Positions 12,518 through 59,973 of a DNA stretch of 64,000 nt are shown here, in pieces (positions within the stretch are counted from its first letter, which is position 1; each line of letters begins with the position of its first letter). Origin of the DNA: Sphingosinicella microcystinivorans (GTDB lineage: Bacteria > Pseudomonadota > Alphaproteobacteria > Sphingomonadales > Sphingomonadaceae); NCBI RefSeq assembly GCF_027941835.1, contig NZ_CP116005.1, positions 4,293,501 through 4,357,500 of the forward strand, in the 5' to 3' direction. Under the pieces are notes generated by a model. It was not told where the DNA came from and made no database searches. It saw only the letters and a program-made list of their open reading frames with translations. The translations under genes and the position numbers were made by a program.

Positions 12518-13993
12518 CTACCGCGCGGCGGCGGGAGGTGCCGCCGCGTCCATGTCGATGGGCTCCACCTCCAGCGTCAGGCCGTCGAGGGCCGTGACCC
12601 GCACCGGCGCACCAGCGGCGAGGCCGCCCGGTCCCCGCGCCCGCCAGCGTTCGCTGTGCACGAAGACGTGGCCCGCGCCGTCCTTCCAGTCGAGCACGGT
12701 GCCCTCGGCCCCGACCATCTCCTCGCGGCCGCTCACCACCTTCCGCCGGTGCGAGACAAGCGCGAGCCGGGCGATCACGACCGTCATGGCGAGGCTCGCG
12801 AGCGCGACGGCGCCGAGCACCGGCCACGCGATCCGGAACTGCGGCACGTCGGTGTCGATCAGGATCGCCGCGCCGAGGACGAAGGCGACGAAGCCGCCGA
12901 TGCCCAGAATCCCGAACGACGGCGAGAACGCCTCGGCGGCCATCAGCGCGATGCCGAGCAGGATGAGCGCAAGGCCGGCATAGTTCACTGGCAACACAGC
13001 GAACGCGTAAAGGCCGGTCAGCAGGCAGATCGCCCCGATGGTGCCCGGATAGAGCGCCCCCGGATTCATGAACTCGAACAGCAGCCCGTAGACGCCGATC
13101 ATCATCAGGATGAGCGCGACGTTGGGATCGGTGATGGTGCCGAGGAAGCGGGCGCGCCAGTCCGGCGCGACCTCGGCGAGAACGAGATTGCGGGTGTCAA
13201 GCGTGACCTCCTTGCCGCCGGCGACGACCGTGCGGCCGTGGAGCTGTTCGAGCAGATCGTCGGTGTCGCGGGCGACGAGGTCGATCACGTTCCGTTCGAG
13301 CGCCGCGCTCGCGGAAAGGCTGGCCGCCGTCCGCACCGCCGCTTCCCCCCAGTCGGCGTCGCGGCCCCTGAGCTCGGCGAGCGATCGGATATAGGCGACG
13401 GCGTCGTTGATCGCCTTCGCCTCGGCGGCGCCGGCGGCGGGCGCGGCCTCGTCCTTGCCGTCCTTGTCCTTTTCCTGCTGCGGCGGCGCGAACGGATTGC
13501 CGCCGCCGATCTGCACCGGCGTGGCCGCGCCGAGGTTGGTGCCGGGCGTCATCGCGGCGACGTGGCTGGCGTAGAGGATATAGGTCCCCGCGCTCGCCGC
13601 CCGCGCGCCGCTGGGGCTCACGTAGGTGACGACCGGCACGGGCGAGCGCAGGATCGCCCGGATGATGCCCCGCATCGCGCTGTCGAGGCCGCCGGGCGTG
13701 TCCATCCGGATGACGACGAGCGGAGCGTTCTCCTCGGCGGCGCGTTCGAGACCGCCGACGACATAGTCCGATGTCGCCGGGCCGATGGCGCCGTCGATGA
13801 GGAGCACCGGCGCCGTGCGCCCGGTCTGCGCGGCGCCCGGCGGCGTCCACAGCACCAGCGCGCCGAACAGCAGGCCGAACAGCGCCAGCGCCCGCCGCGG
13901 GCAGAAGGCTGAACCGGTACGCGCGATGCTGCATCTCCTTCTTCCAGAACGACTTGTTACGCCGGAAAGCAGGCACCGGGCACTACGTATCAT
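12518..13993 (-). CDS. nfeD: NfeD-family membrane-bound serine protease (ClpP class)
   Basis: The 491-residue form has a signal peptide ending near GAAQ, a ClpP-like protease domain, about five membrane helices (about 290-420) and a C-terminal OB-fold-like NfeD domain. The Ser-Lys dyad known in archaeal homologues is present as Ser134 in RAASAGTY and Lys193 in EAKAINDAV. These proteases cleave slipin C-termini in the studied cases, and slipin is the next gene. The start is uncertain. ATG 13993 has weak pairing, while AAGGAG lies 7 bases before an in-frame ATC at 13927, which would leave a shorter, more normal signal peptide. The FixJ-like box at 13983-13999 overlaps the longer start. Confidence 0.88.
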
Positions 13994-47374: not shown

Positions 47375-48100
47375 CTATTTCAGCCCGGCAAGATGCCGGG
47401 TGACGACCGCGGCCAGCTCCGGCCGCCGGTCGAGGCATCGCGATACCGGTCCCACCACCACCACCGACAGAAGACGTTCGCTGCCGGTGAGCGGCATGGC
47501 GACCCCCGCCAGATCGGGCGTATACTCGGTGTTGCTCTGGTGCCAGCCCATCGCGTCCGCTTCCTCGAGCCGCGCCTCGACGGCGTCGGGACTCATCGGC
47601 GTCGTCGGCGCGTAGGCGATGAAGTCGATCTTCCGGTAAAGCCGCGCGCGCTCGTCCTTCGGCATCTGCGCGAGCAGCGCCCGTCCCGCCGAGCTCGCGT
47701 GGATCGGCACCCGGTCGCCCGCTTTCGCGAAGTAGCGGACGGGCTGGGGCGATTCCGCGACGTCGACGAATATCGCGTGGACGCCCGCCGGCGCCGAGAT
47801 CGCCACCGTCTCTCCGGTCGCCGTCATCAGGTCGCGGGCAAGACGCAGGTATTTTTCGGGAAGCGGCTCGGCGCGCGTCACTGCTTCGGCAAGCACCAGC
47901 CAGCGGGAGGCGGGGTAATAGCCGCCCCGTCCACGCGGCTCGTAGAGATAGCCTTTCGACGCGAGCGTGCCCACCAGCTTGAACGTGCTCGAACGCGGCC
48001 AGCCGAGGTCTTCCGCGATTTCGGCCGCCGTCGCGGGCTTCAGCCGTCTGGCGAAGTATTCGAGGATTTCCAGCGCATTCGCGGCCTGTCTCACGATCAT
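47375..48100 (-). CDS. IclR-family transcriptional regulator
   Basis: The 241-residue protein has an N-terminal winged helix-turn-helix with ATAAEIAEDLGWPRSSTFKL and GTLASKGYL, followed by the IclR effector domain with IHASSAGRALLAQMPKDER and DLAGVAMPLTG. It ends 64 bases before the MFS start and begins 88 bases after the SDR stop, all on the same strand, so it lies inside the cluster it probably controls. IclR proteins usually regulate catabolic operons for aromatic acids or related compounds, which agrees with the AAHS-type carrier. No ribosome site of good strength was seen before the ATG at 48100. Confidence 0.92.
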   Translation of the reverse strand: MIVRQAANALEILEYFARRLKPATAAEIAEDLGWPRSSTFKLVGTLASKGYLYEPRGRGGYYPASRWLVLAEAVTRAEPLPEKYLRLARDLMTATGETVAISAPAGVHAIFVDVAESPQPVRYFAKAGDRVPIHASSAGRALLAQMPKDERARLYRKIDFIAYAPTTPMSPDAVEARLEEADAMGWHQSNTEYTPDLAGVAMPLTGSERLLSVVVVGPVSRCLDRRPELAAVVTRHLAGLK

Positions 48101-48963: not shown

Positions 48964-50442
48964 TCAAGCTGCGAACGGGTCCGGGAACCTGCCCGTGGTC
49001 GAAACGATGGTGGTCTTGGTCTCGAGGAACGGGTCGAGCCCTTCGATGCCGTTCTCGCGGCCCCAGCCGCTGGCCTTGACGCCGCCGTAGGGCGTCGACC
49101 AGCGGATGTAGCGATAGGTGTTCACCCACACCATGCCCGCCTCGATCCGGGCGGCGACCCGGTGCGCGCGGCCGGTATCGCCGGACCAGAGCCCCGCGGC
49201 GAGGCCGTAGGGCGTCGAGTTGGCGATGGCGATCGCATCCTCCTCGTCCTCGAAAGGGATGATCGCGGCAACCGGCCCGAAGATCTCTTCCTGCGCGATC
49301 CGCATTCCCGGGGCTACGCCGGCAAACACGGTCGGCTCGACGAAGAAGCCCTCGGAAAGTCCGGCGCGGTCGATCCGCGCGCCGCCCGTCACCAGCTCGG
49401 CGCCTTCCTCGCGCCCGATCGCCACGTAGGACAGCGTCTTTTCGAGCTGCTGCGCATGGGCCTGCGGACCCATGTGCGTCGCCGGATCGAGCGGCATACC
49501 GACGCGCACGCGCGCGGCGCGTTCGCGGAACGCCTCGACGACCCGGTCGTAGACCGGGCGCTCGACGAGCACGCGGCTGCCGAGCGCGCAGCTCTGGCCG
49601 CACAGCGCCCATGCCGAGCCCGTCGCGGCGTTCAGCGCCTGCTCGACGTCGGCATCGGCGAAGATGATGTGCGGCGCCTTGCCGCCGAGTTCGAAGGTGC
49701 AGCGGGTGAGCGTGTCCGCCCCCGCCTTCAGGATGGTCTTCGCCGTCGCGCCTTCGCCCGTGAAGCTGATCTTGGCGACGTCGGGATGCGCGACGAGCCG
49801 CGCGCCGGCGACCGGCCCGTCCCCCGGCACGACGTTGACGACGCCCGCCGGAAAGCCCGCCGCCTCGAAAATCCGTGCGAGTGCGAGCGACGATGCCGGG
49901 GTCTGCTCGGCGGGCTTCAGCACCACGGTGCAGCCCGCCGCGAGCGCGGGGCCGAGCTTCCACGCCGCCGCCATCAGCGGCACGTTCCACGGCGTGATCG
50001 CGCCGACGACGCCGACCGGATGCCGCGTCGTGAACGCGTGCACGCTGTCGTCCATCGGGATCGTGCGCCCGCCGAGCTTGTCCGCCAGCGACGCGAACCA
50101 GTGATAATATTGGGCGTGCAGCCCGATGTCGCCGCGGGATTCCCGAACGGCGCGGCCGTTGTCGCGCGTCTCGATCTCCGCCAGCGCATCGACCTGCGTC
50201 GCGTAGAGATCCGCGAACCTGCGCATCAGCGCCGCCCGCTCCCACGGCGGCATCTTCCGCCACGGTTCGAACGCGTCCTTCGCCGCTGCCACCGCGCGAT
50301 CAATGTCCCTGACCCCGCCGTAGGCGACATCGCCCCACGGGGCGCCCCGCGCGGGGTCGATGCTCGGCCGGACGCCGCCGTCGACCGGGCTTGCCCATGC
50401 GCCGCCGATGAAAAGGCGGTCGAAGCGAAAATCGGACAGCAT
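48964..50442 (-). CDS. NAD(P)-dependent aldehyde dehydrogenase
   Basis: The 492-residue enzyme has normal ALDH length. The cofactor fold includes GAITPWNVPLM and VLKPAEQTPAS. The general base Glu lies in TFELGGKAPHII, the nucleophilic Cys in CGQSCALGSRVLV, and EEIFGPVAAIIPF is also present. GGGGAG lies six bases before the ATG at 50442. It is the first gene of the leftward series with SDR, IclR, MFS and M28 peptidase. Its leader carries a GGGAC-T6-GTCCC hairpin and, further up, the palindrome at 50511-50527 with a TTACCC box. The substrate is not evident. Confidence 0.93.
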   Translation of the reverse strand: MLSDFRFDRLFIGGAWASPVDGGVRPSIDPARGAPWGDVAYGGVRDIDRAVAAAKDAFEPWRKMPPWERAALMRRFADLYATQVDALAEIETRDNGRAVRESRGDIGLHAQYYHWFASLADKLGGRTIPMDDSVHAFTTRHPVGVVGAITPWNVPLMAAAWKLGPALAAGCTVVLKPAEQTPASSLALARIFEAAGFPAGVVNVVPGDGPVAGARLVAHPDVAKISFTGEGATAKTILKAGADTLTRCTFELGGKAPHIIFADADVEQALNAATGSAWALCGQSCALGSRVLVERPVYDRVVEAFRERAARVRVGMPLDPATHMGPQAHAQQLEKTLSYVAIGREEGAELVTGGARIDRAGLSEGFFVEPTVFAGVAPGMRIAQEEIFGPVAAIIPFEDEEDAIAIANSTPYGLAAGLWSGDTGRAHRVAARIEAGMVWVNTYRYIRWSTPYGGVKASGWGRENGIEGLDPFLETKTTIVSTTGRFPDPFAA

Positions 50443-50467: not shown

Positions 50468-50483
50468 GGGACTTTTTTGTCCC
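50468..50483 (-). promoter_or_regulatory. Hairpin in the ALDH leader
   Basis: GGGAC and GTCCC form a perfect 5-bp stem around six T (six A on the transcribed strand), 26 bases before the ALDH start. It is followed on the plus strand by TGTACA, so CCCTGTACA spans 50481-50489; the same 9-mer occurs at 39838-39846. Whether it acts as an RNA hairpin or a DNA site is unknown. Confidence 0.4.
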
Positions 50484-50510: not shown

Positions 50511-50527
50511 GACGGGTAATACCCGTC
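50511..50527. promoter_or_regulatory. Perfect palindrome with TTACCC box, ALDH promoter region
   Basis: GACGGGTAATACCCGTC has 8-base arms around one central base. On the minus strand it contains TTACCC (50519-50514), 72 bases before the ALDH start, in the same orientation as the boxes upstream of three other local genes. It also lies 11 bases after the regulator stop codon, so a role as a transcript-end hairpin is the alternative. A minus-strand TTGACT (50503-50498) lies between it and ALDH. Confidence 0.5.
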
Positions 50528-50537
50528 GCGGCGTCCC

Positions 50538-53222
50538 TCAATGCGTGTGCGCCGCGACCGGTTCGCTGCTCGGTATCAGCCCCCGTTCGGCGGAGATGCG
50601 GACCGCGTCGCGGCGCTTGCTGACGCCGATCTTGCGGAAAACCGACTTCAGCCGGTATTTCACCGTGTCCGGAGACATGCCGATCAGCCGGGCGATCTCC
50701 TTGTTGGAATGCCCCTGGCTCAGATAGAGCAGCACCTCGGCCTCCGCCTCGCTGAACACGCCGAAAACCGTGGCGCTGCCGCGATGGGCGGCAAGCGCCT
50801 TGGCCAGCGATTTCAGGAACTGCGCGCGGAACCGCCCGAGCTGCGCGTCCGCCTGCAGCGCCTCGTCGAGGCAGGGCTGCACGAACTGCCGCGCTTCCAC
50901 GAACGGGCGGATGATGTTCTGGAACATGGCGATGCTGATCGCCTCGTCGAAGCAGCAGCGCGCCTCCGCCGCCGCGCCCTGCCCGCGCAGGGCTGCGGCG
51001 GCGAGGATGTTGACGTCGATCAGCAGGCGCCCGGCGCCCCGCTGCTCCGCCCACGCGCGCAGCCGCCCGATTTCCTCCAGCGCCCGGTCCCACGCGCTGA
51101 CGAGCAGGTGCAGGCGGACCCGGCACAGCGACGCCGCCGTCGCCACGGGGCGGTACTGCGGCGACTCCTCCGCCATCATGTCGGCCAGCGCGTCGAGGCC
51201 GATGACCGCCGCAGCCGCGAGCACGGCCTGCGCGGGCGCGCCCTGCGCGATCTGCACGTCGATATTGCAGATGTCGGCCAGCATCTCCAGCTGACGCAGC
51301 CGCCGCCGCGCCGCCACGCGCCGCGCGCGCGCAAGGATGTCGCAGGCCTCGTCGAACGCGCCCTCGCTCGCCAGCGCGCGCGCCTCGGTGAAATAGGCCG
51401 CCGCGTAGACATCCACCCAGCCGTCCGACTGCTCCATGTGCGGCAGCGCCCACGACAGCAGCTCGCGCGCCTCGGCGGTCTGGTCCTGTTCGAAGAGGAG
51501 TTCGGCCTGAAAGGCGGCACAGTTCGCGGCGAGGTCGGAGCGGCTGCCGAAGTTGTCGACCGTGTCGCGCCATGCGGTTTCCAGGATCGTCCCCGCTTCC
51601 TTGGAGCGGCCCTGCGCGCGCTTGATCCGCGCTTCGAGGAAACGCGTGAACAGGTCGCTGTAGAGCGAACCGATGGCGACGTAGTGATCGCGCGCGGCGA
51701 GCGTCGGCTGAAGCGCGCGTTCCAGCCAGCCGCCTTCGTAGTACTTGGCGCCCAGCGTCTCACTGAAATTGGCGAGGACGAGATGGTCGTTGGCGGGCAG
51801 CTTGCGGAGCAGCGCCTCGCGCGCGAGCAGGTCCTCGAAGGTGACGGGCTGGTTCTCGTAGTCGGAGAGCGTATCGCCGACGACGCGGATTTCCGTGCGC
51901 AGGTCGACCGGCATGTCGGCCGCGTCGGCGCCCGCCGCGAACAGGTCGAACTCCGCGCGCGCCGCGCCGATCTCGCCGCGCTTGATCTGGAGATAGACGA
52001 GCGCGAGCACGAGGCGCGGCCGGGCGCGAACGAGCGCCAGCGGCAGCTTCCCAAGGCCGCGCTCGGCGACGCCTTGCAGGCCTTGCGGGATCAGCCGCCA
52101 GCCGCCGGCCTCTTCCAGGATGTCCCCGATCAGCATGTCGTCGGCGGACAATATGGCGTGGTTGACCGCCTCGGCGATCTGGGCGCGCTCGGCGAACCAG
52201 CGCGCGATCCGCCGCTGGAGCGCCGTGAACTGCGGGCGGTCCGAACGCTCGAAACGATCGCGCAGGTAATCGGCGAACAGCTGGTGATAGCGGTATTCGC
52301 GGCGCTCCCACGTCACCGGGGAGAGGAAGACGCCCTGCTGCTCGAGCCGTTCCAGCACCATCCAGCCGTCCTGCCGGTCGCAGAGCAGATCGACCGCTTC
52401 CCCCGTCAGGCGGTCAAGCAGCGCCGTGCGCAGCACGATGTCGCGCGTCTCCTGCGGCAGCGTCATCAGCACCTGCTCGGAGAGATAGCGCGCGAGGTCA
52501 GAGCTCGATCCGCAATACTCGTCGATCACCCGCTCGGCCCCGAGGCCGCGCTTGATCGACAGCGAGGCGAGCTGCACCGCGATCGGCCAGCCTTCCGTGC
52601 GGTCGAGCAGCGTGTCGATGTCGATCGTCTCCAGCGACCCGTCGGTGCGGCAGAGGAGGCATTCGGCCTCCTGCGCCGAGAACTTGAGATCGGCCGCGGC
52701 GATCTCCAGCAGTTGCTCCTCGGCCGCCAGCACCGACTGGCCGAGCCACGGGTAGTCGCGCGATGCGAAGATGAAGTGGCAGTTGGGCGGCGCGAGCCGC
52801 ACCAGCGACTGGAGGAAATTCGCGACCGGCTCGCTGTAGGCGTGGTGCAGGTCGTCGAGGATGAGGACGACCGGCACGGGGCGGTCGGCCAGCCCGTTGA
52901 TGATCGCCGACAGGGCGGCGCGGGGCGGCAGGTCGGCGGAAACGGACCTGCCGTCGTTCTCCTGGAGCATGGCGAGCAGCAGGTAGTTCACGAACCGCTT
53001 GAGGTCGCGGTCGTCGTGTTCGAGCGTCAGCCATGCGACCTGCGCCGCGGCGGGGTCCAGGCTGTCGCGCCACTGGGCGAGAAGGCTCGTCTTCCCGTAT
53101 CCGGCAGGAGCATGGACGAGCGTCAGGCGATGGGTGAACGCGCCGTTCAGCCGTTCAAGCAGCAGGTCGCGGCTGATCTGCTCGCCCATCCACACGGGCG
53201 GATCGAACTTGGCGGCGATCAT
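50538..53222 (-). CDS. MalT-like LuxR-family ATP-dependent regulator (LAL type)
   Basis: The 894-residue protein starts at the ATG 53222 (MIAAKFDPPVWMGEQ); longer frames rely on unlikely starts. Walker A is APAGYGKTS at about residue 38-46, and Walker B is VVLILDDLHH. A long helical TPR-like region follows, and the C-terminal LuxR helix-turn-helix reads EAEVLLYLSQGHSNKEIARL with MSPDTVKYRLKSVFRKIG. This is the architecture of MalT and other STAND regulators, which assemble on repeated short DNA boxes when bound to ATP and an inducer. Repeated TTACCC boxes upstream of neighbouring genes are a plausible target set. No strong ribosome site was found. Confidence 0.9.
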   Translation of the reverse strand: MIAAKFDPPVWMGEQISRDLLLERLNGAFTHRLTLVHAPAGYGKTSLLAQWRDSLDPAAAQVAWLTLEHDDRDLKRFVNYLLLAMLQENDGRSVSADLPPRAALSAIINGLADRPVPVVLILDDLHHAYSEPVANFLQSLVRLAPPNCHFIFASRDYPWLGQSVLAAEEQLLEIAAADLKFSAQEAECLLCRTDGSLETIDIDTLLDRTEGWPIAVQLASLSIKRGLGAERVIDEYCGSSSDLARYLSEQVLMTLPQETRDIVLRTALLDRLTGEAVDLLCDRQDGWMVLERLEQQGVFLSPVTWERREYRYHQLFADYLRDRFERSDRPQFTALQRRIARWFAERAQIAEAVNHAILSADDMLIGDILEEAGGWRLIPQGLQGVAERGLGKLPLALVRARPRLVLALVYLQIKRGEIGAARAEFDLFAAGADAADMPVDLRTEIRVVGDTLSDYENQPVTFEDLLAREALLRKLPANDHLVLANFSETLGAKYYEGGWLERALQPTLAARDHYVAIGSLYSDLFTRFLEARIKRAQGRSKEAGTILETAWRDTVDNFGSRSDLAANCAAFQAELLFEQDQTAEARELLSWALPHMEQSDGWVDVYAAAYFTEARALASEGAFDEACDILARARRVAARRRLRQLEMLADICNIDVQIAQGAPAQAVLAAAAVIGLDALADMMAEESPQYRPVATAASLCRVRLHLLVSAWDRALEEIGRLRAWAEQRGAGRLLIDVNILAAAALRGQGAAAEARCCFDEAISIAMFQNIIRPFVEARQFVQPCLDEALQADAQLGRFRAQFLKSLAKALAAHRGSATVFGVFSEAEAEVLLYLSQGHSNKEIARLIGMSPDTVKYRLKSVFRKIGVSKRRDAVRISAERGLIPSSEPVAAHTH

Positions 53223-53376
53223 GTCTTGCACGTGGCCTGAGCTCCCTCTGCACCCCCTCTGCCTCGCGAAGTTACGGGTCGAGGGCCGGACTGACAACCG
53301 TGCGGCGTCGCCCCCGGCAAACGGCTTCGCAGCCGACCCGAACGGCCGGCGCCGGCAGCGGCGGGACGGTGCGTGC

Positions 53377-55164
53377 CTATTTGCTCCCCGCCGATCCCAC
53401 CGACGCCCAGTCGCCGGACACCGGTTCTCCCTTGAACAGCGTCAGCGTCACCTTGGCCTTCGAAATCTCGTGCACCGGTAGTTTGAAAATATCATTGTCG
53501 AGGATCACGAGATCGGCGTTCTTGCCCTTGACGATGGAACCGGTGAGCTTTTGCAGCCCGTTGACATAGGCGACATTGATCGTGTGACTCCGGATCGCGT
53601 CCTCGAGGCTGACGCCCTCGTCCGGAAGCAGCGGCTTCGCATCGGGCTGCCCGGCGGTGCGGCGCGTCATCGCCACTTCGATGCCTTCGAGCGGGTTTGC
53701 GCCGCCCACCGGCCAGTCTGCGCCGTAGGCGAGCTTGCCGCCCGCGCGAACGATGCTTCCGGCGGGGTAGATGTATTCCGAACGCTTCGGGCCGATCGCG
53801 GCGACCGTCAGGTCCATGTAGTCGTACCACGACGCCCATGTCGGCTGGAACTGCGCGAACGTGTTCAGATTGCCGAAGCGCGGCTGATCGGCCGGATCGA
53901 CGACGTTGAGGTGCGTGACCATGTGGTACGTGTCCTTCGCGCCGTTCGCCTTGCGCGCCGCCTCCACCGCGTCGAGCGAAATGCGCACGCCGCCGTCGCC
54001 GATGGCGTGAAAGAACGCGTGCATCCCGCGCGCGTCGACCGCCGTGGCCGCCTGCTTCAGCGTGTCGGGCGCGATCTGCGGCGTCCCGCGCTCACGCCCG
54101 CTGTTCTCGTAGGGGGCGAGCATGTACGCGGTCTTCTGCGGGATCACGCCGTCGACGTAGAACTTGACCGTATGCGTCGGGATGCCGAGCGCGTTCGCCC
54201 GCTCCGCCGCCTTCAGCAGGCTCGGCAGCTGGTCCATGCCGCGCTCGTTCTTCCATTTCAGCGAAACGGTCACGTAGCTGGTCAGCTTTCCGGCATCCTT
54301 CACCGCCTTGTAGGCGTCGATCATCGGGCTGCCGCCGTCGTCGTCGAACTCGACGCCCGCGTCGTTCCAGCCGACGATTCCAAGGCTGTTGAAATGGTCG
54401 GCGACATAGAGGATCGAGTTCTCGATCTCGGTCGCGGTCGGCGCCGGGATCATGGACTTGACGAGGTCCATCGCCGCTTCCTGAAGGCTGCCCACGGGCT
54501 CGCCCGTCGCGGGGTCGCGGTCGATCGTCCCGTTCGGCGGATTCTTCGTGTCGCGCGTGATCTTCGCGACCTCGAGCGCCTTGGAATTGAGCCAGTATGT
54601 GTGACCGCCGGTGGATTCGAAGATCAGCGGACGCGTCGTCGAGACCTTGTCGAGAACCTCCTTGCGCGGAATGCCGCTGGGCGGAAAGAGCGCGTCGCTC
54701 CAGCCGATGCCGTAGATGGCGCCGTCGCCGGGCGTATCGGCGACGCACTTCGCGATCGTCGCCTGATAGTCCTCGATGCTCTTGCCCTCGTGCAGCGGGC
54801 AGCGCGAGCGGCTGAGGCCGCCGAAAAGCGGGTGGGCGTGCGCGTCGCCGAACGCGGGAAGGACGAGGCGGCCGCCGACGTCGACCGTCCTCGTTCCGGA
54901 GCCGCCATAGGCCGCCATCTCGCCGTTCGTTCCGACGGCAACGATCTTGCCGTCCTTGATCGCCACGGCCTGCGCCCACGGATTCGCGTCGTCGACCGTA
55001 TAGACGCGGGCGTTGGTGATGACGAGGTCGGCAAGTTGCGATTCGGTGGTCGCCGTGCCGCCGCACGCCGCGAGAAGGACGGCGAGGGCGCAGCCTCCGG
55101 ACCTCGGCAAAGCCCGGGCCGGCTTCAACGGCAACGGCCTCACGTCTCGAACGGCGATACTCAT
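53377..55164 (-). CDS. YtcJ-like amidohydrolase, predicted lipoprotein
   Basis: The 595-residue protein starts at 55164, with AAGGGG seven bases upstream. It has a long N-region and then the lipobox LLAAC in ALAVLLAACGG, so it is predicted to be a periplasmic lipoprotein. The amidohydrolase-3 domain is seen in LVITNARVYTVDD, LPAFGDAHAHPLFGG with the HxH metal pair, FHAIGDGGVRISLDAV and YGADWPVGGANPLEG with the catalytic Asp. YtcJ-like enzymes hydrolyse C-N bonds in varied amides. A direct repeat of TTACCC boxes lies 122-148 bases upstream. It is divergent from the PepSY gene. The substrate is not known. Confidence 0.9.
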   Translation of the reverse strand: MSIAVRDVRPLPLKPARALPRSGGCALAVLLAACGGTATTESQLADLVITNARVYTVDDANPWAQAVAIKDGKIVAVGTNGEMAAYGGSGTRTVDVGGRLVLPAFGDAHAHPLFGGLSRSRCPLHEGKSIEDYQATIAKCVADTPGDGAIYGIGWSDALFPPSGIPRKEVLDKVSTTRPLIFESTGGHTYWLNSKALEVAKITRDTKNPPNGTIDRDPATGEPVGSLQEAAMDLVKSMIPAPTATEIENSILYVADHFNSLGIVGWNDAGVEFDDDGGSPMIDAYKAVKDAGKLTSYVTVSLKWKNERGMDQLPSLLKAAERANALGIPTHTVKFYVDGVIPQKTAYMLAPYENSGRERGTPQIAPDTLKQAATAVDARGMHAFFHAIGDGGVRISLDAVEAARKANGAKDTYHMVTHLNVVDPADQPRFGNLNTFAQFQPTWASWYDYMDLTVAAIGPKRSEYIYPAGSIVRAGGKLAYGADWPVGGANPLEGIEVAMTRRTAGQPDAKPLLPDEGVSLEDAIRSHTINVAYVNGLQKLTGSIVKGKNADLVILDNDIFKLPVHEISKAKVTLTLFKGEPVSGDWASVGSAGSK

Positions 55165-55285
55165 GCCCCACCCCTTCATGCCAGTCGCTTCGGTTGTTGC
55201 GAGGCCCCCGGAATCCGCTCCTCGTCCGGCGCGCCCCGCCTTTCCCATTCAATATCAGCCGCTCCTGCGGATGAATCTCTTTTGA

Positions 55286-55312
55286 GGGTAACGGAATGTG
55301 CAAGACGGGTAA
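55286..55312 (-). promoter_or_regulatory. Direct repeat of TTACCC boxes before the amidohydrolase
   Basis: GGGTAA occurs at 55286-55291 and 55307-55312 on the plus strand, which is TTACCC-N15-TTACCC in the sense of the amidohydrolase. The starts are 21 bp apart, two helical turns. A minus-strand GATATT (55256-55251) lies 29 bases downstream as a possible -10. The same geometry occurs at 58510-58536 before another gene. Confidence 0.6.
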
Positions 55313-55369
55313 GGCGAAGTGCCTCTCCGGCCGGGCAGGCGCCTTGCCCTCCCCATCTTCCCTCCGGTT

Positions 55370-55375
55370 TTACCC
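55370..55375 (+). promoter_or_regulatory. Single TTACCC box before the PepSY gene
   Basis: One TTACCC lies 67 bases upstream of the PepSY start in sense orientation, with a degenerate TTGCCC at 55344-55349. A single hexamer is weak evidence alone; it is listed because orientation and position agree with the other sites. Confidence 0.35.
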
Positions 55376-55441
55376 ATAAGGGCGCTTTGCCTTCCGCCTC
55401 CGGGCAATAGAGTTGCGGGCTCCCGGGAGAGAAGGGCTGTA

Positions 55442-56536
55442 ATGTCGAGTTCGCCAGTTGTCCGGCGCCCCTGGCGCAAGCGTATCGTTGCCATCCATCG
55501 CTGGCTCGGAATCGGCGCCGCCGCGTTCTGGCTGATACAGGCCGTGACCGGCACGTTGCTCACGTTCCATTTCGAGATCGAGGACGCGCTGCTTTCGGCG
55601 CGTCACCAGCCGACCGACCTCGCCGCGATCGAGCAGCGCATCGACGCTTTCGCCGCCGCGGGAGGCGAGGCGAAGGTCAACTGGATCTGGACGACCGCCG
55701 GGCTGCCCGACCGCTACATCATTTCGCATGTCGGCGCCGACGGAACCGCGCGCAGGGCCTATATCGACGGGTCCGGCGCGGTCCTCCGCGACAAGGCCGC
55801 GAACGACCACAGCGTCCTGAAACTGGTCCGCGAGATTCACCTCACGCTCGCCGCCGGCACCATCGGCCATTGGCTACTCGCGGTCACGGGCCTGCTTCTC
55901 GTCACCAATCTCGTCGCCGGCCTCGCGGTCGCATGGCCCGCGCGCGGCCAGTGGCGCGCCGCGCTTCGTCCCCGGGGCGGCACCTCCAGGCCCTCCGGCC
56001 TCCATTCATGGCACCGCGCGATCGGGCTCTGGGCCGTCGCACCGGCCATCGTCATCGCCGCCACCGGCACCCTGATGCTGTTCGAGCACGAACTCGGCGA
56101 GCTTCTCGGCGTTCCCGAGATCGCCCTGCCCGCCAATCCGCCGCGGGGCGAGGCGGTCGGCTTCGCCGCCGCGGCCCGCGCGGCGACGGCCGCCATTCCC
56201 GGCAGCCGCTTCGTCGCCACGACGCTGCCCTCGCCCGGCGATGCCAGCTACTACGCCTGGGTGCGGGCGCCCGGCGAGCTCTATCGCGGCGGCTACGGCG
56301 GCAGTCTCGTGATCGTCGACGCGAACGACGGCAGGGTGCGGGGCGCATGGCCGGTCACGGAGGCCGATCCCGCGCGGGCCTTCCTCGCGTCCTTCTACCC
56401 GCTGCACACCGGCGAAAGCATCGGGACCACCGGCAGGGTCCTCTCGATGGCGATCGGCGTCTGGCTCACCGTTTCCATCGTGCTCGGCACCCTGCTCTGG
56501 CTGCGCCGCCGCCCGGCCCGGAGACAGGCATCATGA
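55442..56536 (+). CDS. PepSY-domain transmembrane protein
   Basis: The 364-residue protein starts at 55442, with GAAGGG five bases upstream. The first helix region reads RIVAIHRWLGIGAAAFWLIQ, followed by PepSY repeats in the periplasm and helices near 135-160, 190-215 and 335-355. This is the PepSY-associated membrane helix family, often found beside iron-uptake genes and proposed to act in reductive metal release or in electron transfer. The ATGA overlap with the next gene shows tight coupling to the FAD oxidoreductase. That pairing suggests the two proteins may work together, possibly as a redox pair; this is inference. Confidence 0.85.
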   Translation: MSSSPVVRRPWRKRIVAIHRWLGIGAAAFWLIQAVTGTLLTFHFEIEDALLSARHQPTDLAAIEQRIDAFAAAGGEAKVNWIWTTAGLPDRYIISHVGADGTARRAYIDGSGAVLRDKAANDHSVLKLVREIHLTLAAGTIGHWLLAVTGLLLVTNLVAGLAVAWPARGQWRAALRPRGGTSRPSGLHSWHRAIGLWAVAPAIVIAATGTLMLFEHELGELLGVPEIALPANPPRGEAVGFAAAARAATAAIPGSRFVATTLPSPGDASYYAWVRAPGELYRGGYGGSLVIVDANDGRVRGAWPVTEADPARAFLASFYPLHTGESIGTTGRVLSMAIGVWLTVSIVLGTLLWLRRRPARRQAS

Positions 56537-58473
56537 CGGATACCCGCCGCCTCGACGCCGCCCTCGGCATGCGCGAGCGGATCACGCGCCGCGATTTCGT
56601 GAACGGCGTTCTCGTCGCAGGCGCGGCCACCCAGCTCCCGGCCTGCGGACGCACGACGGGAACCGCCGAGGGACCCTTCGCCCCCTCCGGCTCGGTGTGG
56701 ACGGGATATGGCGGCGTCGGCGACTACGCGTGGTCCAACGGCAACACGCAGGCGGTGATGGATGCTGCCCACGGCATCCGCGACCGGCTCTATCCGGACC
56801 CCGGCCGAACCCCCGTCGACGAGAGTTTCGACCTCGTCGTCGTCGGCGGCGGCTTTTCGGGCATGACCGCCGCCTACGAGTTCGGCAAGCGCGGCGGCGC
56901 GGGGCGGAATTGCCTGCTGCTGGAGAACCACCCCATCGTCGGCGGCGAGGCCAAGCAGAACGTGTTCGAGATCGACGGACGGCAGCTTGTCGCCCCGCAG
57001 GGCTCGAACGGCGGGCTGCTATTCAAGCCGGGCTATGTGCGGGGGAGCTACGGCAAGGGCCGCTACGAGGTCTACACGGACTATTACCACGAGCTCGGCC
57101 TCGCCTCCCACTACGATCTCGAGCCGCTGGCGGGCGGCGCGGAGCGGTACGAAATCCCCAACTATCATTTCGCGCCGATGGCCCCCGGCTCCGAACGCGG
57201 GTACGAGACCGGCTATCATTTCCGGGATCGCGGATGGGTGCGAAACCCGGCGCGCGACGGCTTCGCGCACACGCCCTGGCCCGCCGACGTCCGAAAGCAG
57301 ATGGACGACTACGTCCACAACCGCCGGGACATATTGTCGGACCGGAAAGACGCCGAGGCGTGGCTCGATTCGATCACCTACTACGACCTGCTCGACGGGC
57401 TGGGCTACGGCGAGCAGGTCCGCCGCTACGTCGATCCCTATCTCGCCGTCGCGAACTTCGGCGTCTGCGGCAACGCCATATCCGCCTACGCGGCGCACAG
57501 GCTCGGCCTGCCGGGGACGACCATCCCGAAACCCGCCGGGAACAGCGGCGCGGCGCACATCGGCGTCGTCTCGTTCCCGGGCGGCAATGCGGCGATCCTG
57601 AGGATGATGCTGGCGCGGATGATCCCCGGCAGCATCAAGGGCGACGGCAGCACGGCCGCCATCGCCTCCGCGCCGATCGACTTCGGCGCGCTCGACCGAC
57701 CGGGGGCGCCCGTGCGCATCCGCGGCGGTGCGACCGTCATCGACGTGCGGCACGAGGGGACGCCGTCCGCCGCCGAGCACGTGCTCGTCACCTACGTGCT
57801 GGGCGGCAAGGTCCGGAAGGCCCGCGCCCGCGCCGTCGTCATGGCCTCGGGCGGATGGGTCAACCGCAACATCGTCGCCGACCTCGGCGAGGCCCATGCG
57901 GGCGCCTACGGCGAATTCCACTACGGCCCGGTCCTCACCGCCAACGTGGCGCTGCGGCACTGGCGTTTCTTCGACAGGCTCGGGATCATGGCGGCGCGCT
58001 GGTTCGAAGGGCTCGGCTGGCACGTCGCGGTGCGCCGCAACGTCGCCTTCGGAAGCCCCGCCCCGCTCACGCCCGACGATCCCGTCGTGCTCACCTTCTA
58101 CATCCCCTTCCTCCGGCCGGACCTCCCTGCGGACGCGCAGGGACCGGCGGCGCGCATGGCGATGCTCGAGGCGAGCTACACCGATCTCGAGCGGCAGATC
58201 CGGGCGCAGATGAGCGAGATGTTCGGCGCCGCGGGCTTCGATGCGCGGCGCGACATCGCCGGCATCGTCCTCAACCGCTGGGGCCACGCCTTCTGCGCGC
58301 CGCAGCCGGGCTTCTTCCTCGGCCGCGACGGCAACGAGCCGCCCCCCGACGTCCTGCGCCGCCCGCACGGACGGATCGTTTTCGCCCATTCGGAGCTTCA
58401 GGGCCTGATGAGCATGGCCTACGCCATGACCGAGGCCTACCGGGGCGCGGATCAGGCGATGGCGATGCTCTGA
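56533..58473 (+). CDS. Tat-exported FAD oxidoreductase, spermidine-dehydrogenase-like
   Basis: The 646-residue protein begins at the ATG overlapping the PepSY stop. A twin-arginine signal ITRRDFVNGVLVAGA (Arg19-20) ends in a lipobox-like LPAC with Cys38. The FAD fold reads DLVVVGGGFSGMTAAYEFG, and VGGEAKQNVFEIDG and FAHSELQGLMSMAYAM follow the flavin oxidase pattern. The N-terminal layout and the gap between signal and Rossmann fold resemble SpdH, the Pseudomonas spermidine dehydrogenase, but substrate identity is not shown. Predicted to act in the periplasm, anchored as a lipoprotein. Electrons could pass to the PepSY membrane partner. Confidence 0.82.
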   Translation: MTDTRRLDAALGMRERITRRDFVNGVLVAGAATQLPACGRTTGTAEGPFAPSGSVWTGYGGVGDYAWSNGNTQAVMDAAHGIRDRLYPDPGRTPVDESFDLVVVGGGFSGMTAAYEFGKRGGAGRNCLLLENHPIVGGEAKQNVFEIDGRQLVAPQGSNGGLLFKPGYVRGSYGKGRYEVYTDYYHELGLASHYDLEPLAGGAERYEIPNYHFAPMAPGSERGYETGYHFRDRGWVRNPARDGFAHTPWPADVRKQMDDYVHNRRDILSDRKDAEAWLDSITYYDLLDGLGYGEQVRRYVDPYLAVANFGVCGNAISAYAAHRLGLPGTTIPKPAGNSGAAHIGVVSFPGGNAAILRMMLARMIPGSIKGDGSTAAIASAPIDFGALDRPGAPVRIRGGATVIDVRHEGTPSAAEHVLVTYVLGGKVRKARARAVVMASGGWVNRNIVADLGEAHAGAYGEFHYGPVLTANVALRHWRFFDRLGIMAARWFEGLGWHVAVRRNVAFGSPAPLTPDDPVVLTFYIPFLRPDLPADAQGPAARMAMLEASYTDLERQIRAQMSEMFGAAGFDARRDIAGIVLNRWGHAFCAPQPGFFLGRDGNEPPPDVLRRPHGRIVFAHSELQGLMSMAYAMTEAYRGADQAMAML

Positions 58474-58509
58474 CGGCCCGATAGCGGCGGCGCGCCCGCA
58501 ACCGCCGTC

Positions 58510-58536
58510 TTACCCTTCACGGGAAGCGGCTTACCC
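58510..58536 (+). promoter_or_regulatory. Direct repeat of TTACCC boxes before the secreted protein gene
   Basis: TTACCC occurs at 58510-58515 and 58531-58536, again 21 bp apart, in sense orientation and 116-142 bases before the ATG at 58652. TATGGT (58565-58570) lies 28 bases downstream as a possible -10, which puts the proximal box next to the -35 position. The geometry copies the site before the amidohydrolase. Confidence 0.6.
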
Positions 58537-58651
58537 AACAGCCTTGCTGCCCGCCTCCCCGCTTTATGGTGTCTTCGGCCCGCGCAGAATCGGATCGTTC
58601 CGGCAAGGACGGCTCCGGCACCGTCGTTCAGAACAAGGAGGGTATGAACCA

Positions 58652-59281
58652 ATGCAGACATTCACGATGAAACTATGGTCCGTCGCGGCCGGCGTCGCCG
58701 CCGCCTCGGCCGTGGCGACGCCGGCCGCGGCGATGGCCGATCCGAACGCGCCCACCGTCCCGTCCCCCACCGATTTCGTCTATCCCACCGGCTTCGACAA
58801 GGCGCTGTCGCTGATGCTGGCGGGCGAAGGCGGCGAGAACGGCATCGGCTCGCAGCGCGTCTGGCCGACGCTCTCGTTCCCCGCGCTCACCACCGATCAG
58901 ATCCGCAAGGCCGTCAGCGGCAACTCGCTCGTCATCCCCTATCACTACACGCATCAGTACAGCGCGGACGGCAAGGTCGGCGGCTACAACATCCGCTACG
59001 ACCCGGTCGACCTCAAGAAGTGCCCGAAGAAGGAAATCCCGGGCGACGGTTTCCTGCTCTACGAAGGCGTGTGCAGCGCGCAGGTGAACGAGCCCGTCAC
59101 CGGGTCGTGGCAGGCCAGGGACGACAAGCTCTGCGTCGACATCGCCTGGGCGGGCAAGTCGCAGATCAGCGGCTGCTATACAATGTTCTTCGTCATGGAT
59201 AGCGTGGCGCTGGTGAAGCCGGACGGCACCGTTTCCGGCAAGGCGCACGGCCTCAAGAAAGGCGCCGCGCCCGACATGTAA
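58652..59281 (+). CDS. Secreted protein of unknown function
   Basis: The 209-residue protein has a Sec signal peptide (MQTFTMKLWSVAAG... to about AAAMA). The mature part has four cysteines, in LKKCPKKEI, YEGVCSAQV, DDKLCVDIAW and ISGCYTMFF, which could form disulfides in the periplasm. I do not recognise a family. AAGGAGG lies ten bases before the start; another ATG at 58643 is out of frame. The gene follows the FAD oxidoreductase by 178 bases, has its own TTACCC direct repeat, and is followed by a PKHD hydroxylase after 20 bases. Confidence 0.82.
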   Translation: MQTFTMKLWSVAAGVAAASAVATPAAAMADPNAPTVPSPTDFVYPTGFDKALSLMLAGEGGENGIGSQRVWPTLSFPALTTDQIRKAVSGNSLVIPYHYTHQYSADGKVGGYNIRYDPVDLKKCPKKEIPGDGFLLYEGVCSAQVNEPVTGSWQARDDKLCVDIAWAGKSQISGCYTMFFVMDSVALVKPDGTVSGKAHGLKKGAAPDM

Positions 59282-59301: not shown

Positions 59302-59973
59302 TTGATCATCTGCATCTCGGACATTCTGGGCGCCGACCAGATCGACCGGCTTGTTCGGATGATGGATCGGCAGGCCTTCATCGACGGTCGCGAGACCGCC
59401 GGCTGGGCGGCAACCGGGGTGAAAGAGAACAAGCAGGTCGCCGGCGACTCTGCGGACTATGCCGCCATGCAGGCAATGGTCACGGAGGCGCTGGCGGCCA
59501 ACCGTTTTTTCGCGACGGCGGCCATGCCGCGCACCATGCGCCCGATCCTTTTCAGCCGCTATCTGCCGGGCATGAGCTACGGCCTTCATGTCGACAACGC
59601 GCTGATGGGCGATGCCCCGCAGACGCGCATCGACCTCGCCTTCACGCTGTTTCTTTCGGACCCCGCGAGCTACGAGGGCGGCGAGCTTGCGATTGACGAG
59701 CCCGCCGGAACGCGCACGTTCAAGCTGCCCGCGGGCGCGGCCATCCTCTACCCCGCCAATACGCTGCATCAGGTGAACACGGTCGTCTCCGGCCGCCGGG
59801 ACGTCGCGGTCGGATGGATTCAGAGCCTCGTGCGCGAGCCCGACAAGCGGCGCATCCTGTTCGAACTGGAAAACCTCCGGGCGACGATGTTCGCCGAGAC
59901 CGGCAAGACCGCCGCCTTCGATACGCTGTCGCGCAACACCAGCGACCTCTGGCGCATGTGGGCCGAGACCTGA
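59302..59973 (+). CDS. PKHD-type Fe(II)/2-oxoglutarate hydroxylase (PiuC/YbiX-like)
   Basis: The 223-residue protein starts at a TTG at 59302, with GGGGAC six bases upstream. The iron ligands are His96 and Asp98 in YGLHVDNALMG and His156 in NTLHQV. The 2-oxoglutarate-binding Arg is in SGRRDVAVGW. The C-terminal DUF4243-like helical part ends ...TSDLWRMWAE. PKHD hydroxylases of this type are normally encoded next to iron-regulated TonB receptors (PiuA). Here no receptor is adjacent; the neighbours are a secreted protein and a CoA-transferase. The substrate is unknown. Confidence 0.9.
   Translation: MIICISDILGADQIDRLVRMMDRQAFIDGRETAGWAATGVKENKQVAGDSADYAAMQAMVTEALAANRFFATAAMPRTMRPILFSRYLPGMSYGLHVDNALMGDAPQTRIDLAFTLFLSDPASYEGGELAIDEPAGTRTFKLPAGAAILYPANTLHQVNTVVSGRRDVAVGWIQSLVREPDKRRILFELENLRATMFAETGKTAAFDTLSRNTSDLWRMWAET

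Follow-up and report, generated by a model that had tools for sequence, protein, structure and literature searches.

The 64-kb window analysed here (i.e. the whole stretch from 4293501 to 4357500 of a 4.53-Mb single-contig genome) is highly likely to encode a MalT-like STAND (LAL) activator together with several of its target promoters, which the protein would bind via direct repeats of TTACCC. Judged from sequence comparisons, promoters with these repeats are very probably switched on by the MalT-like regulator. The same pairing of box and regulator recurs in distantly related bacteria, indicating that this is a real gene-control network. An earlier note on this DNA had proposed a MalT-like regulon with TTACCC repeats, and both the distribution of the repeats and their conservation at orthologues supported that proposal.

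The regulator (894 aa) is encoded at 50538-53222 on the minus strand, between its putative targets as had been claimed, and consists of a P-loop NTPase, a MalT-type TPR region and a C-terminal GerE HTH (Pfam PF13401/PF13191, PF17874 and PF00196, respectively). The NTPase (AAA_22/AAA_16) contains Walker A and B motifs, with APAGYGKTS and VLILDD invariant in alignments of the paralogues. The TPR-type sensor matched TPR_MalT at 52.4 bits (cut-off 45), the LuxR/GerE HTH gave an E-value of 1.6e-12 and residues 2-413 matched the MalT structure 8bob (E 5.8e-50). The protein scored below the NCBIfam MalT equivalog NF003420 (303.7 bits vs a cut-off of 537) and maltose/maltodextrin genes were absent from the box-bearing set, indicating that the regulator does not qualify as a MalT equivalog. 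Repeated boxes 5' of target promoters, as expected of a STAND/LAL protein, were found by comparative evidence (two to three boxes, 19–22 bp apart). A second MalT-like gene, 77% identical to the first, lies 41 kb away and is divergent from hyuA. Both paralogues have the identical segment SNKEIARLIGMSPDTVKYRLKSVFRKIG, containing the recognition helix. The link of the boxes to a MalT-like protein stood, and either copy may act on a given promoter, as the two close paralogues share a recognition helix and a neighbourhood. Six related genes for secreted PF00756-type esterases and two MocR-type regulators surround the second MalT-like gene (4359800-4405500; L007-L009). A third MalT-like paralogue in this genome (L017; 2122162-2124825), located 1.5 kb from a HyuA paralogue, has an in-frame TAA and is possibly a pseudogene.

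Two TTACCC-N15-TTACCC arrays were present in the window where the earlier note had placed them, at 55286-55312 (minus strand) upstream of the amidohydrolase gene and at 58510-58536 (plus strand) upstream of the gene for a secreted 209-aa protein. The window contained no further pair at spacers of 10–20; 0.01 pairs were expected in a shuffled window and none of 100 shuffles contained two. The amidohydrolase pair was kept in six further orthologue loci, with a spacer of 14 or 15, and the secreted-protein pair recurred upstream of orthologues in five other loci and, in a congener (G080), on two contigs. Single sense-oriented copies of TTACCC, also claimed earlier, were located 66 bases 5' of the PepSY_TM gene (55370-55375, plus strand; ATG at 55442) and 71 bases 5' of the aldehyde dehydrogenase (ALDH) gene (50514-50519, minus strand; start at 50442). 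Both appear to be genuine targets as well. In two congeners, the PepSY orthologue is preceded by a full pair instead of the single box. The ALDH box lies inside a palindrome, GACGGGTA-N-TACCCGTC (50511-50527, minus strand), with TTGACT 10 bases later; ALDH promoters have one box with TTGACT ~10 bases on, the box has been retained in a near-identical MAG and in four loci of Sphingopyxis, and box plus TTGAC in L019, L020, L021, L022 and L026. The ALDH promoter also contains another palindrome, GGGAC-TTTTTT-GTCCC, at 50468-50483, and related GGGAC...GTCC palindromes occupy the same place in Sphingopyxis-type loci. This element may serve as an operator for the IclR regulator whose gene lies at 47375-48100. 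An Rfam scan of the region gave no match.

The putative targets in the window are an Amidohydro_3 family amidohydrolase (53377-55164, minus strand), the 209-aa protein (58652-59281, plus strand), which has a signal-like N-terminus and no match in Pfam or NCBIfam, a PepSY_TM membrane protein (55442-56536, plus strand; PF03929) and the ALDH (48964-50442, minus strand). A FAD/NAD-binding oxidoreductase recognised by Pfam (56533-58473, plus strand) overlaps the PepSY stop codon and is a probable operon partner. Downstream of the secreted-protein gene, and possibly co-transcribed with it, is a gene for a PiuC/YbiX-type Fe(II) dioxygenase (59302-59973, plus strand; NCBIfam NF003974, 254.6 bits vs a cut-off of 143).

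Across the whole genome, TTACCC-N14-16-TTACCC occurred at five sites only, preceding genes for the amidohydrolase, the secreted 209-aa protein, a cupin protein, HyuA (hydantoinase/oxoprolinase) and a TonB siderophore receptor. Four of these exact pairs fall within 39 kb, around the two MalT-like regulators (~1e-5 for random placement). The fifth is a site in trans: the receptor gene (FoxA/FhuA group) is situated at 2.82 Mb, 1.5 Mb away. Relaxation of the second box to YTACYC added one site, before a gene for a DAO-type oxidase (the orthologous gene of a congener is preceded by a perfect pair), and searching with CTACCC as the first box added no site in this genome.

When 84,980 species genomes were scanned, 31 regulator orthologue loci (48–98% identity) were found, in Sphingomonadaceae, Henriciella, Caulobacter, Niveispirillum, Pseudoxanthomonas, Luteimonas and Steroidobacter. 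The pair was present in 26 of the 31, in both Alphaproteobacteria and Xanthomonadaceae, indicating that the repeat has been kept upstream of orthologues in relatives that keep the regulator; many of these loci come from related Sphingomonadaceae, so the counts are non-independent. When spacers of 0–80 bases were scanned in these loci, lengths of 13 (6 pairs), 14 (11), 15 (26) and 16 (14) predominated, with eight scattered others. Pairs with a spacer of 14–16 numbered 51, and none of the 59 alternative orders of these letters exceeded 3 except for CTTACC, whose 12 occurrences were read as TTACCC sites shifted by one base. All 62 sites with a spacer of 13–16 had a downstream gene, drawn from nine homology groups: HyuA (24), TonB receptor (15), amidohydrolase (7), secreted protein (6), cupin (5), a 154-aa protein (2) and three single genes.

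The repeat was also rarer away from the regulator. The regulator was present in four of 150 genomes from the family. These four contained 17 sites, as compared to 1.26 expected (Poisson P ~4e-14), and the 146 others contained 46 (0.32 each). Sites in these genomes were classed by homology of the downstream gene; a coding/intergenic classing by open frames and GC3 was discarded for lack of discrimination, as open frames cross upstream regions in high-GC DNA. Apart from a single site, those in the other three genomes with the regulator precede members of the regulon families, including PepSY genes with a full pair, and in G080 the secreted-protein gene sites are in trans on two further contigs. 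Only 1 of 40 background sites was near a regulon gene, a distant amidohydrolase at 27% identity. HyuA homologues drawn from the family and the class provided a further control. A YTACCC pair at 21–22 bp was found in 5/5 HyuA promoters with an orthologous regulator and YTACCC arrays in 2/5 with a distant MalT-like neighbour. Boxes were found in none of the 31 HyuA promoters for which no MalT-like gene was detected within 1.5 kb, one of these having a distant MalT-like paralogue just past that limit.

Box and recognition helix vary together. The helix is almost unchanged among orthologues with exact pairs. Steroidobacter orthologues (48–49% identity) have an altered helix, TNKEIARLLKISPNTVKYHLKSLYEKLG. 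Three of their four HyuA promoters contain CTACCC, CTGCCC and TTACCC, spaced 21 and 22 bp, and the fourth has a more degenerate version. The orthologue at L033 has a partly changed helix and a degenerate array without an exact pair. Steroidobacter loci (L043 5865, L044 5855, L048 5864 and L049 5849) also contain CTACCC-N15-CTACCC between the NCS1 and TonB receptor genes, apparently in the opposite orientation to the receptor gene. Distant MalT-like paralogues (~31% identity; L102, L104, L108, L016 and L017) adjoin HyuA paralogues or other genes and have arrays of CTACCC...CTACCC, CTACCC-N15-TTACCC or ACCTCCT at 22 bp. These arrays hint that LAL regulators linked to HyuA, with boxes of a related kind, form a wider family.

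These data bear on three other explanations of the repeats. Chance recurrence of a short word would produce a pair at ~0.3 per genome in this family and is refuted by the counts (i.e. shuffles, clustering in the genome, letter permutations and enrichment in regulator genomes), so that it hardly merits consideration. Inheritance of non-coding sequence with the cluster, or a core-promoter element with no specific regulator binding, would fit the observation that related Sphingomonadaceae, with the repeats at syntenic positions, account for much of the conservation. This too is very improbable: spacers remain sharply at 13–16 while the surrounding intergenic DNA has diverged, these boxes are shared by genes without homology to one another and by genes in trans, and HyuA paralogues without a MalT-like neighbour have no boxes.

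Binding of the boxes by another regulator of the cluster (IclR, MocR/GntR or OmpR type), with the MalT-like gene a mere neighbour, is somewhat less implausible and still unlikely. An IclR gene is found in 15/31 orthologue loci, and IclR/MocR and MalT-like proteins are both kinds of regulator that control catabolic genes. The pair nevertheless persists in 12 of the 16 loci without IclR, the exceptions being the diverged Steroidobacter and L033 loci; MocR is found in only 4/31 loci and no regulator gene besides the MalT-like one is conserved. Direct repeats two turns apart are in general unusual for IclR or GntR dimers, and the changes in the box follow changes in the HTH of the MalT-like protein. 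Recognition by the MalT-like regulator is therefore the favoured reading.

The anatomy of the promoters suggests how this regulator might act. Over 42 two-box promoters, the distance from the last box to a -10-like hexamer (TTGAAT, TTCAAT or TGTAAT) peaked at 32–34 bases, which is the general rule. Counting from the last box makes the offset agree between promoter types, with peaks at 33–34 in two-box and at 32 in three-box promoters against 0.2–0.4 expected per offset. The earlier note had put the -10 at 28–29 bases in both window arrays. This position holds for the secreted-protein promoter, where a possible -10 (TATGGT; 58565-58570, plus strand) starts 28 bases past the proximal box, an offset that forms a minor peak among two-box promoters. 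It fails for the amidohydrolase promoter, where the likely -10, a TTGAAT conserved in relatives (55247-55252, minus strand), lies at 33. A third, degenerate box ([CT]ACCCG) starts 15–16 bases after the second in 22 promoters, nearly all of HyuA genes, giving a period of 21–22 bp. The -35 matching the -10 is poor, the best match being mostly 3/6. If the -10 is taken as -12 to -7, the proximal box would end near -45 and the next near -66. In several Sphingomonas TonB promoters (L031, L040 and L042; near 12700-12720), an inverted GGGTAA is present a few bases 5' of the first TTACCC.

By analogy with MalT, an inducer would bind the TPR sensor and ATP the NTPase, leading the regulator to multimerise. 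In this state its C-terminal HTH (NarL/GerE type) would recognise TTACCC half-sites in direct repeat (extended form YTACCC[G/A]TC), which at 19–22 bp apart would present themselves on the same DNA face. Polymerisation on the boxes is suggested by this analogy alone: the activator would assemble on two or three same-face boxes adjoining the -35 region. With the proximal box ~33 bases before the -10 (near -45) and beside a poor -35, the bound protein would recruit RNA polymerase. We infer activation rather than repression from this box position and the weak -35. The predicted targets are the HyuA / S-Me-THD / NCS1-permease operon, the FoxA/FhuA-type TonB siderophore receptor, PepSY_TM, the amidohydrolase, the secreted 209-aa protein, the cupin protein, the DAO-type oxidase and ALDH.

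The commonest partners of the regulator over the 31 orthologue loci were HyuA, S-Me-THD/DUF917 and the NCS1 permease (28/31 each), followed by the amidohydrolase (27/31) and TonB receptor (23/31). It may be speculated from these partners, PepSY_TM and the PiuC-type dioxygenase that the regulon serves to import and degrade an iron chelator or cyclic amide. A narrower version, offered with considerable doubt, is a xenosiderophore uptake-and-catabolism system under a STAND activator, in which the chelator or one of its fragments would act as inducer. Import would then involve the FoxA/FhuA-type receptor, PepSY_TM (as in FoxB), the PiuC-type dioxygenase and the esterases, and degradation the amidohydrolase, HyuA/S-Me-THD, ALDH and a CoA-transferase. 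One regulator orthologue is found in Niveispirillum irakense, a desferrioxamine degrader.

To our knowledge, few LAL/STAND regulators besides MalT have a known DNA box. Here the box, spacing, promoter position and target list are sharply defined across Alphaproteobacteria and Xanthomonadaceae, and the Steroidobacter box change matches the helix change, making box recognition by a large regulator class directly testable. Membership of the regulon also names target genes that are unannotated and connects a hydantoinase-type operon and a siderophore-type receptor with a STAND sensor, an arrangement not found described in the open-access papers searched. Searches of the open-access literature for TTACCC with LuxR, DUF917/hydantoinase with LuxR and siderophore degradation with LuxR returned no description, subscription papers being outside their coverage, in agreement with the claim that no box of this sequence had been described for such a regulator. 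The regulator class and its use of direct repeats are already known; the box, spacing, regulon and taxonomic spread were not found described in this literature.

NarL recognises the heptamer TACYYMT, and TTACCC holds the TACCC core preferred by this type of HTH, that of the present regulator belonging to the same Pfam family as the NarL/FixJ-GerE domains. NarL sites are mostly inverted pairs, whereas those described here are direct repeats 19–22 bp apart, and NarL is a phosphorylated response regulator whereas the MalT-like protein has no receiver domain. Escherichia coli MalT has the same domain order (NTPase, TPR sensor and GerE HTH), has directly repeated boxes 5' of the promoter and aligns through structure 8bob over the N-terminal half of the regulator. 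The MalT box is the decamer GGGGA(T/G)GAGG, and the present system differs in its TTACCC box, its two-turn spacing and a regulon with no maltose genes. MalT multimerises on inducer, binds its boxes cooperatively and recruits polymerase (PMC4381067). TpdR of Rhodococcus jostii TMP1, a LAL activator of tetramethylpyrazine catabolism, uses two direct repeats upstream of its promoter, box A at -79 to -65 and box B at -51 to -37 (PMC6099782). It comes from a different bacterial phylum, responds to a different ligand and has one known promoter, with 15-bp repeats 13 bp apart (i.e. a 28-bp period), yet the two-repeat layout is shared and the position of its proximal box is close to that deduced for the TTACCC promoters.
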